A stretch of 36,080 nucleotides of DNA from Saccoglossus kowalevskii. Its lineage: Eukaryota > Hemichordata > Enteropneusta > Harrimaniidae. The stretch lies in the NCBI RefSeq assembly GCF_000003605.2, contig NW_003142307.1, forward strand, positions 182,717 through 218,796, in the 5' to 3' direction. Below are positions 11,753 through 35,726 of this stretch, one piece after another (the stretch's first letter is position 1; each line of letters begins with the position of its first letter). The notes under the pieces were generated by a model. The model had not been told where the DNA came from. It saw only the letters and a list, made by a program, of their open reading frames with translations, and ran no database searches. The position numbers were made by a program, and so were the translations under genes.

Positions 11753-13762
11753 TGGCTATGGTAATGAGTGGTGTTAATCACTTGCATAGATTATGACGTA
11801 TTCTGTTTCAGCGGTCCAACATCACGTGACTTTGATTGACAGTAGTAATTATTCAAGATTTGTCGCGCGTTCCTTTCCCCGGTTCATGTTTTTTTACTTT
11901 AACCGCCAAAATCTCAGCTCGTACATTATTTATTGTCATAAATACTGCACACAGTCACTGCTGTGATATTCATAGTCACATGCATCCACTTTGGCATGAC
12001 ATAATAGACTTGTAAGTTCGAGCATAGACCCTCTAAGGGTCTATGGTTCGAGAAAACGCGTTTTTACCGGAGCTTGGCTGGCGTAACAAGCAAGGAAATA
12101 TTTATAGTATACCGACCCCATCAAAACACTGGTATGAATGACGTGTTTCTGATTTATATATTCAAGAGCAGTTGTTCTGGTCCAACGATTTTACATAAAA
12201 TGTCTATGTCTATGTCTATACGTCAACTTTCAATTTCAATAGTCTAGAAAGTATGACAAAGTATGACAAAGCAGTAATTCCCGGTTTAACGCGCAAATAT
12301 GCAAATTAGCCTTTTTCTCGTCTTCTATTTTTGGTGAATTCTTGGGTTTTAAATTAAAATAGCTGATAGACGCTTTGGCCATTTGCCTCGAAATTTTCAC
12401 ATATTATTGACAAGGTGTTCCCCCTTCAAAATGCGTCCGGACAGTTTATTACGGCGAGTGGAACAAAAATAACAAGTCCGCAATTAACATGGATATATAA
12501 ATTATGCGAAAATAGAAAAGAGTGAACTTTGAGGTCATGCTGTGCGACTTTGAAAGTCGTTAGAGAGATGAGTGGACGCATTTGAATTAGTAGTATACCA
12601 AGGTATCCAGTGATGTAATTTTACCCACAAACGGACTTGAAGTTTTTAAGCTATTTTTTTTAAAACCACTTTTGTCCAAAAAAGCATATTTTTGACCCAA
12701 AATCAAAAACGCATTCTGGATATTTAAAATAAAGACAAGTTTTACAAAGTTTGTATAATAAGCTTTCAGAAAATATATAACATGTTGGATATATAATACC
12801 ATCTTCATTGTCTAATTACTCAATTAAAAAGCAAGCCAAATAAACTGCATCTCTACCTTAAGTTACTCCCGGGAGTATTGAGCAGCAAGATTATAAACTC
12901 ATTCCGACAAGCTCGGTTTATATAAAATTATTGATTTCCTGGACTGGGTGACTGGGTGCTGACGTTACCACGTGTAAAACCAGTGTAATTCTCATTGGCA
13001 GTCCTTTGGTGATGATATCCCATGAGTCTCAGAAAGTGACACTCTGCTGTCACAAACACTCTTATGTATCACAGAGTTTTAATTTTCAAGCGCGTTCCAA
13101 ATAAACTTGAACATCAATATATTGAAACTATCGATACTAGCAGTATCCATCCATTCCATTGCTCCACGCCTTGGTGGGTAAAGTCAGTGTGGCATGGCAC
13201 TGATGGATATGGTCGGTATATGATACAGGGATGGCACTAGTGGGTAAGTCAGCATGAGATAACTAATTACTGTCAATTTACTATCATGAGTTTAAGGAAT
13301 ATGTTTTGTAAGCAACCAACTATATTCCTCGTATCGGATATACATAATAATGTATATCTTCTTTATGGAGGCGCCCAACGGAGGCGGAATTACATTGGTA
13401 GAACAAAGATATGTAACAGAAAAAACATCCATGTACGCCATCAACGTTCATAGTGTCCTCACGTTTATAGATGCGGTGCTCGTGATGTATTCACGATATA
13501 GGAATGTTTTCAATTATCCTAAAATGTTACAATCAGCGAGAAACAAGATCAGAGAAACCCATTGATTCTGTTCAATTCTTTAAATGACAACTAGCTTATC
13601 GCATGCCAAGGGTTTTGGATTAAATTCCGGATTAAATTCTGCCTAAGGCTTAAAGAGTAATATATTTGAATATAGCCGCCAATCAGTAGGCCTTTTTACT
13701 AATGCATAATCGTACCTTGAGGGCGCAATTTGCTCAACAGTATGTTCAGTGCACGGCGTACT
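11753..13762. other. Intergenic DNA with short duplications, no gene seen
   Basis: Contains short tandem duplications (TCTATG near 12200, AGTATGACAA near 12250) and a partly repeated block around 13170-13250. A minus-strand open frame at 12587-12808 is low-complexity and unsupported. Confidence 0.5.
12016..12052. mobile_element. Hairpin micro-insertion H1 with 7-bp direct repeats
   Basis: A perfect hairpin (arms CATAGACCCT and AGGGTCTATG, loop CTA; 12023-12045) is bordered at once on both sides by GTTCGAG (12016-12022 and 12046-12052). The direct repeats look like a target-site duplication. The arm resembles those of the hairpins at 29385 and 30310. Confidence 0.6.
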
Positions 13763-29245: not shown

Positions 29246-29779
29246 TTGTTTATAAACAAACGTTTGCCCATGAGTCTTTGCGTTTTTATCGTCGCTTAGG
29301 ATTGGCTGGTTATCGCCTCAAGTGTCATGGCGTACCAAGCCACAAGAGACCGGTAACTTGTAACGGCATTTTGATTGGTCCATCCACAGTCCCTCTGTGG
29401 TCCATCACTTTCTCGTAGCTTTTTTTATTTTCCTTGGTTACCTAACGTCAGCGCTTACGCTCGTGGCCGTTCAGGGGTTTCCTTTCGAAAGTTGGGCGAA
29501 TAATTTGAAAATTTGCACAGAAACAGCGAGGAATGTTAGAATGTATGAGCATGGTTTTATTGTAGTATTACAGACACGTTTACGCAGAACGGAACTTGGA
29601 ATGTTGTTAAATTACGTCATTCGGTCACGTGCCTTCCGGCCGGAAAACCGGCCCAATGGGACAATGTGGCGATTACGAGTTACCTGCGTTCTACTTGCCA
29701 TTCGCAAAGGTCGCTGGGAACCAGCGAACACTTAGGACTCATACCCGCGCGTGCGCAGGTGAAGACCCTGCTGCTTTAA
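29246..29779. mobile_element. Family A MITE split by a ~430-bp insertion
   Basis: 29246-29300 (GTTTATAAACAAACGTTTGC, then CCATGAGTCTTTGCGTTTTT) and 29735-29779 (CCCGCGCGTGCGCAGGTGAA, then TTTAA) are consecutive parts of one family A element in reverse orientation. The sequence between, 29301-29734, is unrelated to the family. An open frame at 29397-29735 lies wholly in that insert and shows no known domain. Confidence 0.55.
29376..29406. mobile_element. Hairpin micro-insertion H2 with 9-bp direct repeats
   Basis: TGGTCCATC at 29376-29384 and 29398-29406 flank CACAGTCCCTCTG. The arms CCACAG/CTGTGG overlap the repeats. The 12-base arm CACAGTCCCTCT is identical to that of the hairpin at 30310, as if the second arm had been shortened. 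Confidence 0.5.
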
Positions 29780-30080: not shown

Positions 30081-30354
30081 TAAGGGTGGTAGTCGTCGAG
30101 CCGCGTGTGCGACATTTGTGTTGATGAACATTAATTTCCCCACATTACAGTGCGTTCTTCTAATGAAATCACGAGTACGAGTATTACACTGGGCAACGTA
30201 CACTAATTGACACAGGTGAATCCTTCGATACCTTCCAGTTACCTAAAATATACTTAGTTAAAGCTCAGTAACGTCATCAAGTCGCCATCTTTGTTTATAC
30301 GTGACTCAGCACAGTCCCTCTATCAGAGGGACTGTGGACTCATATCTCGTGGAT
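30081..30354. mobile_element. TIR element, family C, copy 1, carrying hairpin H3
   Basis: Starts TTAAGGGTGGTAGTCGTCGA and shares ordered blocks with 35392-35726: GACATTTGTGTT, TGCG.TCTTCT.ATG, TCCTTCGATAC.TTCCA and CATATCTCG. The right terminus is degraded (TGGCGC). Non-coding. Confidence 0.65.
30303..30342. mobile_element. Hairpin micro-insertion H3 with ~7-bp direct repeats
   Basis: Perfect 12-bp arms CACAGTCCCTCT (30310-30321) and AGAGGGACTGTG (30325-30336) surround loop ATC. GACTCAG (30303-30309) lies before and GACTCAT (30337-30343) after. The second copy of the host element has a single GACCCAT at 35678-35684 and no hairpin. Confidence 0.75.
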
Positions 30355-30359
30355 GCCTG

Positions 30360-31336
30360 GCGCTAAGAACTAAACAGAAAACATAGTTTTTCAACTAATT
30401 TCGTGCGTGAATTATTAAAAATGTGTATAAAATATGAAACAATTACAGACGTTACGACATGAGCTATATACGAGAATTTATTTGATAATGTAAAATTATT
30501 ACTTTTGCCAAGAATTGCGAGATGAGGATTGCGCGATGATTCTTGCTAATGACCCTTGCATTCAAGGACAAAGGGACGTATCATATGTGACGGCTGTATA
30601 AACGTACTTATTTTTACAGACATATACAATTAATATGCAAATTAGTAAAAATGATGGTATTTGCCCTGTACATCGCGTAACATTGTCTGTAAGTGACAAT
30701 GCAGACTGGATAGTAACTTGTAACTATGATGATGTCAAATTCCACCACAGTCACCGGCATACGTCATACGTACAGATGAAATAGGTTAGGGTGTTTTACC
30801 AAGACTCGCTTCAATTGCACCCGCTTCTTTGAGGTTGTCAATTGAAAAAGGTTCAGACGAACTAATAAATATTTCGCTTCCCTTCTCGCCTACCCTCATT
30901 CCATGGCAACGCTGGTGTTCCCGCGACTTTTTTTACAGCACAACACAATAGCCCACACTTTATGGTAACTATGTAGTTCTAGTTGAATTGTTGTGTATGG
31001 CAGCAAATTGTAAAGAAATGTAGAATTTGGAATCATTCATTTTATGTGAAAATTTCGTTGTTTATATATACATTATAGGACATACTTTAGCATAAGTTAT
31101 CGAAACAAGTAACCCCCTCGCCAGGGAAAATATCCCACAAGCAAACTTCGAAGGTCGAACATTACATACATGATCCGAAGTCACTTGTGTCCGGATCACA
31201 TAAAGCAGAATTTCAAAAACAGCTTTGCATGCCGGGATTTATGGTTGCTAGAAACTACATTAATGACCATTAGAGACACTATCATAATCGATTACGATCC
31301 AACACGGATAACTCATAAAACTGTTATTATTCGAAA
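30360..31336. other. Intergenic DNA, no gene seen
   Basis: AT-rich sequence without supported exons or repeats. Confidence 0.5.
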
Positions 31337-32021: not shown

Positions 32022-33536
32022 CTAAATCGTGAAACAGTGTAAATTGGTTTTAAACATGAAATCCTTGGCAGCTGAGTGCACAGATACGCCGCTATCGACG
32101 TGGTCCTCAGTGTCATATACCGCTGTGTTCTGAACAGTCGCGTCGGTACAAAGAGCGATGCGTAGCTTTCCTAGGGCTTCCATGAACACGGATGTCAAAC
32201 CCAGCGAAAGGTTGTTCGGGTCGAAGCTGACGTCCCACCATGGTAGTGTTTTTCCCATGAAGAATTCTCCGACGGCGTCGACTACAACACACTGAGGGAA
32301 CGTCACTAAGGCTCGATAACTGCCGTAGTTCAAGTGCATGCAGTCCCCATCCATACCGCCAGTCGCACTCTCAAAGCGCATATACAGTCGGTCGCCGTCC
32401 ACAATTTCGCCGTTCTCATCGACGAAGAACCCGCCGACGACGTCCAATCTCTCGGTGGTATCGTCGAGCTTTTCTACGAAAAGTTCAAGCTCCGTGCGTT
32501 CGGTGAATACGTTGTCGTCACCGAGGTAGAGAAAGTATTTGGTACGAACCTGACTAATGGCTAAACTCATAGCGGCGAACTTGTTGTGTTTTTCCGGCAG
32601 AAAATACTGTTTGACACCGGACATGTTCAGTTTCTGGGTCTCGGTAGGGGGCGTGTAATCAGCAACAATGATCGTGGTGTTGTGATAGAATTTGCGCACG
32701 CTTTCTAAAAGTGTTCGGACTTTGACGTAATTGTGTATGGCTGTGATCACGGTAACCTTTCGGCTCACGTGGTTATCAGGACCGGGGTCGTACAATCGCG
32801 GTGGATTCTTTCGCTGAATATGAACATGAACGTGAAGAACAAAATTTAACACTTTGATTTCCACAACATCGCGGTGGTTGACGTCATAGTATGAACTGTA
32901 ATATTGGACGTTTTTCAACATAATATTGATTAATGTTAAATCTCGTTTAACCCGCATGGTGGCGCTTTTTTGCACGTTGTTTTCTGTGGAAACAAAATCC
33001 TTGTAATATTCCGGAGTTTCGATGAAAATCTTGCCGAATTCTTTCAGAGATGTAAACGTGATGACAATGTCGCCCTCAATGGTGGATGATATCAAACTCT
33101 CATGGGCGTTGAGGCCAACCAATCGCACATATTTCTTGGGTTCTACCGTTATACCGCCACCAACGTACTCAAGCGGGGAAAGGGATGGACAAACTACGAT
33201 CGGTTCTCGCTCCTCTTCTTGTTTTTTCTCCCATTCCTCCCTGTCCAGACTTCCTCGCTGGCCGTATTCCTGTAAGGAACTGCCGAAATATATCCTGTCA
33301 GCATCGCCACCTTCTTTGCATGAGCATTTAGCCTCGTCCAACGACATAGTCTTTCGATAATGCTCTTCCAGGAAAGACAAGCGCTTGCCGGATATGACGT
33401 CACTTTTAGTGGCGGCCTCAACGATACGTTTGATGGAGGTTGGTACGTAGAGATTCAAATAAGCGAACGATATTATCATCGACGCAGTCCCGACTAATAT
33501 GAGGAAAGTTAGACAAAGTTTAAGACTAAAGTTCAT
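32022..33536 (-). CDS. B4GALNT-like: Beta-1,4-N-acetylgalactosaminyltransferase-like protein (GT12), 504 aa
   Basis: A type II Golgi glycosyltransferase of the B4GALNT1/B4GALNT2 kind, which transfers GalNAc from UDP-GalNAc to glycolipid or glycoprotein glycans. Residues 5-28 are a signal anchor. The lumenal stem runs to about 255, and the catalytic GT-A domain begins at VTVITAIHNYVKVRTLLESV (261-280). Family landmarks follow: VRKFY...TIIVADY (280-294), KFAAMSLAISQVRTKYFLYL (319-338), DVVGG (365-369), FPQCVVVDAVGEFF (413-426) and LGKLRIALC (455-463). Three lumenal sequons are seen (N286, N304, N442). The length is near that of vertebrate members (about 530). The metal-site motif reads GDDN (339-342) where the family has DDD. 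The coding region is in one exon; vertebrate relatives have many. The exact acceptor sugar cannot be told. Confidence 0.88.
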   Translation of the reverse strand: MNFSLKLCLTFLILVGTASMIISFAYLNLYVPTSIKRIVEAATKSDVISGKRLSFLEEHYRKTMSLDEAKCSCKEGGDADRIYFGSSLQEYGQRGSLDREEWEKKQEEEREPIVVCPSLSPLEYVGGGITVEPKKYVRLVGLNAHESLISSTIEGDIVITFTSLKEFGKIFIETPEYYKDFVSTENNVQKSATMRVKRDLTLINIMLKNVQYYSSYYDVNHRDVVEIKVLNFVLHVHVHIQRKNPPRLYDPGPDNHVSRKVTVITAIHNYVKVRTLLESVRKFYHNTTIIVADYTPPTETQKLNMSGVKQYFLPEKHNKFAAMSLAISQVRTKYFLYLGDDNVFTERTELELFVEKLDDTTERLDVVGGFFVDENGEIVDGDRLYMRFESATGGMDGDCMHLNYGSYRALVTFPQCVVVDAVGEFFMGKTLPWWDVSFDPNNLSLGLTSVFMEALGKLRIALCTDATVQNTAVYDTEDHVDSGVSVHSAAKDFMFKTNLHCFTI

Positions 33537-35391: not shown

Positions 35392-35726
35392 AAAGAGCGG
35401 TGGTCGTCGCGCCGCAAATCTGGGACATTTGTGTTTTATAAACATGTATATGCCAACAATCCAATGCGCTCTTCTGATGGAAATCACTGGTTCGAGTGTT
35501 GACCTATGCGTGTGGTGCACTAATCACCACCAGTGACTCCTTCGATACATTCCAATCACAATAATAATTACCTAATTAAAACTTTCCTTCCAATCACCGA
35601 ATAAATGACATATTTAAAGTTTGGTGACGTCTCAGTTTGTTTCCGTTGATCCGCACAACAAAACATTGTTCATATAAGACCCATATCTCGCGCATGCGTG
35701 GCGCGACGACAGCTGCCCTTCAATAA
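35392..35726. mobile_element. TIR element, family C, copy 2
   Basis: Left GAGCGGTGGTCGTCGCGCCG and right GTGGCGCGACGACAGCTGCC are inverted termini sharing GTCGTCGCGCC. The interior aligns with 30081-30354 and lacks the H3 hairpin. Non-coding. Confidence 0.75.

Follow-up and report, generated by a model that had tools for sequence, protein, structure and literature searches.

A 27-bp hairpin in a Saccoglossus kowalevskii repeat is very probably the excision footprint of a P-superfamily DNA transposon

In the part of PMC7776569 on which we draw, the Drosophila P transposase cuts the 5′ strand 17 bp inside a 31-bp terminal inverted repeat (TIR) and leaves 17-nt tails. As described in part of PMC2895639, junctions left by P excision in flies consist of target repeat, TIR, filler, TIR and target repeat, with overlaps and templated fillers. 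The hairpins that we describe from the hemichordate Saccoglossus kowalevskii resemble the fly junctions in those portions of the two papers (PMC2895639; PMC7776569) in layout: a left and a right TIR remnant, each up to about 17 nt long, meet in an overlap or filler between two copies of the target repeat. As in Drosophila P, so far as those accounts go, the ends read CA...TG and some fillers are copied from nearby sequence. The differences are that the target repeat is 7 bp long here and 8 bp in Drosophila P, that the TIR measures 30 rather than 31 bp and has another sequence, and that the fly junctions are laboratory events, whereas those of S. kowalevskii are natural scars. Target repeats of 7 bp are found in most copies of Galileo, a member of the P superfamily whose target consensus, GTANTAC, is palindromic like the RTTNAAY found here; however, the Galileo transposase has a THAP domain, and none was found in eight ORFs of L075, the transposase-bearing relative described below (PMC4168063, in part). 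The zebrafish THAP9/P-like element likewise comprises a full-length copy and internally deleted copies with common inverted repeats, but its TIR is 13 bp and its target repeat 8 bp, compared with 30 and 7 bp here (PMC7776569, same part).

The window, the 36,080-nucleotide stretch of S. kowalevskii DNA analyzed here, contains a perfect 27-bp hairpin at 30310–30336, in which 12-nt arms, CACAGTCCCTCT and AGAGGGACTGTG, enclose the 3-nt loop ATC. The 7-mers bordering it, GACTCAG and GACTCAT, share six of seven bases, and the whole lies within a family C repeat (Table 1). From 1875 first-look candidates for family C, 40 matches were scored, and 12 further copies were fetched from those 40. When aligned, none of 13 other copies (the one at 35392 in the window and all 12 that were fetched) has an insert at the hairpin point; where the window copy has a hairpin and two 7-mers, the empty copies have a single GACCCAT-like word. 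Judged by them, the base that changed in the left 7-mer is its last one, G for T. The initial annotation had recognized the 27-base hairpin between its two 7-mers and the empty site at 35392, and had reasoned that the hairpin plus one 7-mer is an insertion into family C; these observations and the reasoning hold. The same 13 copies speak against the alternative it had raised, that most family C copies carry the hairpin as an ancestral part. Rfam, at the gathering threshold, identified no family in the window.

Table 1. Positions of the scars, their parts and the transposase-bearing relative (window coordinates unless a locus is named)
Feature	Position	Strand	Remarks
Host repeat (family C element), former P-type insertion site	30082..30380	+	End points approximate; family C matches
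Left 7-bp target-site duplication, GACTCAG	30303..30309	+	6/7 bases as in right copy; GACCCAT-like words in empty paralogues
Left TIR remnant of P-type element, 16 nt, CACAGTCCCTCTATCA	30310..30325	+	Equals first 16 nt of intact elements, e.g., L064
Right TIR remnant, 12 nt (AGAGGGACTGTG on + strand)	30325..30336	-	One base common with left remnant
Right 7-bp target-site duplication, GACTCAT	30337..30343	+	Hairpin flank; GACCCAT-like words in empty paralogues
Second window scar, GTTCGAG-CATAGACCCTCTAAGGGTCTATG-GTTCGAG, sister family	12016..12052 (hairpin 12023-12045)	.	Perfect 7-bp repeat
Third window scar, GTCCATC-CACAGTCCCTCTGTG-GTCCATC	29378..29406 (hairpin 29385-29399)	.	Perfect 7-bp repeat
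P-like element L075	L075:1114-9055 (G000:C1630)		~7.9 kb; transposase domains and convergent second gene with C2H2 zinc finger

Intact element ends in this genome read CACAGTCCCTCTATCMCCGGTCTGGAAACG, a 30-bp TIR with 219 matches at up to two mismatches (108 forward and 111 reverse; control 0). The TIRs of Galileo are much longer. As read from the sequence, each hairpin is two ends of this TIR joined with a variable overlap or filler; two other loci, L001 and L003, are identical to the window hairpin, with 16 nt on the left, 12 nt on the right and an overlap of 1. We put the probability that the hairpin is the excision footprint of a P-superfamily DNA transposon at roughly 95%. A transposon with a 30-bp TIR would have entered the family C repeat, duplicating 7 bp of target. 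Later its transposase would have excised it by cutting each TIR in a staggered fashion, about 17 nt from the outer end, so that single-stranded tails with at most 17 nt of TIR stayed on both flanks. The break would then have been sealed by end joining with one base of overlap, and the product, in which 16 nt of left TIR and 12 nt of right TIR lie between two 7-bp repeats, would be the hairpin that we observe. Part of the initial annotation's suggestion of a hairpin-encoded excision footprint thus stands: it is the excision footprint that fits, and the hairpin would not be encoded as such but formed by two transposon ends joined after excision.

Comparable structures are not confined to this site. 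We searched the window for CA...TG palindromes (arms of at least 5, lengths of 15–55, 7-mer flanks with at most one mismatch) and obtained 3 places, the hairpin and the other two scars of Table 1; among 60 dinucleotide shuffles the mean was 0.25 and the highest count 2. Requiring perfect 7-mers left 2 places, versus 0 in the shuffles. Across the genome (572 Mb, 4830 contigs), a search for the 27-mer in which the three loop bases were left free found 8 places (reversed control 0), and the pattern CACAGTCCCTCTN{0,30}AGAGGGACTGTG, which allows a loop of 0–30 bases and is its own reverse complement, gave 211 matches per strand, with 0 for the reversed pattern. Among the matches listed for this pattern were 48 distinct places, with C310 and C996 entered twice because of nested ends; the palindromes were at most 34 bp long in 35 of these, 35–36 bp in 4 and 37–51 bp in 9. 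The short form CACAGTCCCTCTGTG, the 15-mer of the third window scar, gave 49 matches (29 forward and 20 reverse; control 1).

Flanks were compared at 39 symmetric places, consisting of L001–L004 from the 3-base-loop search and 35 of the 48 listed places (L005–L019 and L096–L115). A 7-bp direct repeat was perfect at 29 of the 39 and had no more than one mismatch at 36, whereas pairing left and right flanks from different places gave 13 matches in 1482. Thus the palindromes flanked by 6–9 bp direct repeats for which the initial annotation had proposed a genome scan do exist, with 7-bp repeats at most places examined, and far more often than the chance level that would have spoken against it. The exceptions were L109 (two mismatches), L112 (three) and L115, whose bases 30–95 (C773) comprise a pair of independent scars separated by about 12 bp, one flanked by ACTAGAT and the other by GTTAAAC. 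A repeat of 8 bp, the length of the canonical Drosophila P target-site duplication, fails, with 4–8 mismatches at all 19 of the first loci compared; 7 bp fits. By column, the 7-mers agree with RTTNAAY at 107 of 174 positions, compared with at most 90 in 5000 shuffles, for a consensus that was picked after the data had been seen. Palindromic pairing within single 7-mers did not reach significance (27 of 87 pairs, a score reached by 1102 of 5000 shuffles).

The 16-mer CACAGTCCCTCTATCA has 185 + 183 matches in the genome. Of 30 loci that were fetched, 2 correspond to the two ends of L064; the remaining 28, which represent 27 distinct places, several of them already among the 39, keep 16 or 17 nt of TIR. 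Of the 27 places, 21 have a second 7-mer that differs at no more than one base; at the other six (L037, L044, L046, L047, L053 and L057) none was found within 100 bp. Some of these scars are asymmetric, with, for example, 17 nt of TIR on the left and 6 nt on the right. At L035, beside the L005 scar, we also observed an additional palindrome, ...GGAACTATAAACCCGGGGTTTATAGTTCC..., adjoining it.

The inverted ends, the 7-bp repeat and the many copies could also be those of an ultra-short mobile element, in which the hairpin itself would be replicated and each insertion would duplicate 7 bp of target, and the initial annotation had suggested a new class of this kind. We consider this extremely unlikely. 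A mobile hairpin would be expected to have one full-length sequence in all copies, but the examined hairpins range from 20 to 47 bp, with a centre that differs from place to place through overlaps, blunt joins and fillers; moreover, asymmetric remnants occur, none of the 78 ends examined retains more than 17 nt of TIR and longer elements exist with the same ends and 7-bp repeats. In addition, the internal transposase-binding sites of Drosophila P, as described in part of PMC7776569, would not fit in a 27-bp remnant. Before new elements are named from short hairpins with direct repeats, the possibility of an excision scar should be tested.

If the hairpins are excision footprints, how were the ends cut and joined? 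We examined the junctions of 39 scars (38 of the sampled loci, with L115 left out, plus the window's own), providing 78 ends. Each end keeps 12 to 17 nt of TIR and none keeps more than 17 nt, although the search pattern permitted longer remnants. Since TIR bases 16 and 17 differ among elements, such that one end of L064 itself scores just 16 by exact match (L051), a ceiling based on exact matches could mislead, and we therefore compared TIR positions 18–30 directly. Here all 78 scar ends match at 1–7 of 13 bases, compared with 10–13 for 21 of 24 element ends. The poor matches among element ends fall at one end each of L062 (5 of 13), L063 (6) and L064 (3), and intact-looking elements therefore do not always carry the inner half at both ends. 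All three have the outer 16 TIR nucleotides at both ends and an unusual inner half at one.

From these remnants we infer a staggered cut about 17 nt inside the TIR, followed by end joining; a cut at this distance, with remnants at the donor site, is characteristic of the P superfamily. Junctions comprised 11 overlaps, 9 blunt joins, 8 with 1–3 inserted bases and 11 with more than 3; the 9 of 48 listed palindromes that exceed 36 bp require filler or nearby second scars. Among the 11 fillers of at least 4 nt, 2 (L013 and L097) are clearly templated, being copied from the TIR, and for the other 9 templating was not distinguishable from shuffles at 0.05. Another possibility is that the hairpins mark the end points of internal deletions made during gap repair, when copying from a sister copy is interrupted, rather than direct joining of cut ends. 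Internally deleted elements are present in this genome, and in one fly assay most wild-type repair products arose by incomplete synthesis followed by end joining (PMC2895639, in part). However, interrupted synthesis should leave variable lengths extending beyond 17 nt, which none of the 78 ends has, and we regard this explanation as very unlikely. The 17-nt stagger is known from Drosophila; a 17-nt ceiling in a distant P-like element suggests that this geometry is old within the superfamily. The scars also constitute a natural set of repair junctions at a defined break, a few of them containing templated filler such as has been linked to DNA polymerase theta in flies.

Candidate sources of the scars survive in the genome. 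The 12 two-ended elements that we fetched range from 191 to 1646 bp, and their 7-bp repeats are perfect in nine (L063, L064, L065, L067, L090–L093 and L095), have one mismatch in L066 and L094 and two in L062, so that 11 of the 12, like 36 of the 39 scars, show at most one mismatch in a duplication within the 7–8 bp of the P superfamily. Six further stretches, L068–L073, have just one TIR end each. The P-transposase domain PF21787 was matched 13 times in the S. kowalevskii genome and not once in 14 control genomes. The first 12 P-transposase loci (L020–L031, 3.2–3.4 kb each) contain no match to CAYAGWCCCTCTATCA with up to two mismatches, and a few have the 12-mer with one or two mismatches; the link between TIR and transposase emerged from wider stretches.

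The best PF21787 match sits in L075, between two identical 30-bp TIRs, CACCGTCCCTCAACACCCGGTTAAGAAACG, that lie about 7.9 kb apart and differ from the TIR of the scars at 8 of 30 bases. ORFs on one strand match, in order, PF21787 (1.1e-27), PF21788 (6.7e-5; 23.7 bits, cut-off 24.8) and PF21789 (1.2e-6), giving this relative, whose TIR agrees with that of the scars at 22 of 30 bases, the RNase H fold transposase split by a GTP-binding insertion that is expected of the P superfamily. On the opposite strand, reading inward from the far end, are a C2H2 zinc-finger ORF and a 351-residue ORF, the latter with no Pfam match. A THAP domain was not found in the eight L075 ORFs scanned, in an exon-less scan that could miss a split domain. 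The best PDB sequence match of the transposase, though weak (E 0.0048), is P transposase 6p5a, and its two aligned stretches cover chain residues D230 and D339, named in part of PMC8230255 as a catalytic Asp and a conserved-motif Asp. The L075 flanks have no matching 7-bp repeat, and its ends may therefore come from different insertions. Another locus, L074, has a TIR, CACAGTCCCTCTATCACCGGTCTGGCAACA, that is nearly that of the scars, and runs into an assembly gap. Just inside its left end lies an ORF with 33% identity to the L075 zinc-finger ORF, and residues 1–28 of the L074 ORF match the 616-bp element L064 at 61%. These relationships tie the short elements to the L075 type. The initial annotation had proposed to look for a longer autonomous element with the same termini; the two-ended elements have those termini, and no copy was found that combines the exact TIR with a transposase.

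Since other cut-and-paste elements also leave footprints, the scars could derive from another superfamily, such as hAT, MULE or Merlin. Direct repeats in these groups are 8–11 bp, and the hAT target duplication is 8 bp. The repeats here are 7 bp, which does not fit a hAT footprint; in addition, the long TIR remnants at donor sites fit the 17-nt stagger of P-type elements, and P-type transposase domains lie between related TIRs. We find an origin outside the P superfamily highly improbable.

The mechanism of P excision is already known; what is of interest here is how many scars there are, that a second family is represented mainly by scars, and that no THAP domain turned up in a P-like element with two genes. 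In the titles and abstract openings of literature outside most subscription journals and Repbase, we recognized no earlier report of a comparable scar set. Tentatively, and with less than even confidence, we envision that a P lineage without THAP and with a convergent C2H2 zinc-finger second gene swept this genome, using 7-bp targets and a 17-nt stagger, and left hundreds of independent scars that would form a natural record of germline end joining at a single defined type of break, with the sister family surviving mostly as scars.

For the sister family, the fuller palindrome CATAGACCCTCTN{0,30}AGAGGGTCTATG was counted 77 times on each strand of the genome (control 0), and seven of eight fetched places have perfect 7-bp repeats, the eighth, L119, having five mismatches. 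The exact end CATAGACCCTCTAACAGA has 38 genome matches, 20 of them in symmetric scars listed for the palindrome search; the other 18 were all fetched, and 16 are scar-like. The remaining two, L133 and L134, do not resemble scars and may be ends of longer elements. A second 7-mer is present in 16 of 20 cases, the scripted count of 17 having included L130, whose second 7-mer is spurious, since L130 and L119 share flanks. In both L119 (C258) and L130 (C2716) the same non-matching flanks surround a family 2 scar, and from this shared sequence the two seem to be one scar copied along with its host repeat. The longest filler-free sister-family scars, L116 and L117, keep 18 + 18 nt, which may reflect either cleavage at 18 nt in the sister family or two filler bases.

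A scar of a third family is nested inside L064, where CATAGACCTTAG...CTAAGGTCTATG (CATAGACCTTAGAAAGAGATTTCTAAGGTCTATG) begins at about base 49 between perfect ATTGTAC repeats. Nine other L064 copies match both sides of the nested scar (bases 1–48 and from 83) and never across it, and for seven of them the left and right matches share exactly 7 bp, as expected of an empty site. Judging by these alignments, the nine copies seem to be without the nested scar.

Finally, we note two other features of the window. A 504-residue open frame at 32022–33536 on the minus strand contains a family 2 glycosyltransferase domain (PF00535), and several places between 18226 and 31897 carry dispersed repeats with inverted ends of the CGCATGCGCAGGTGACGACTC type, some of them followed by TTTAA-like words.
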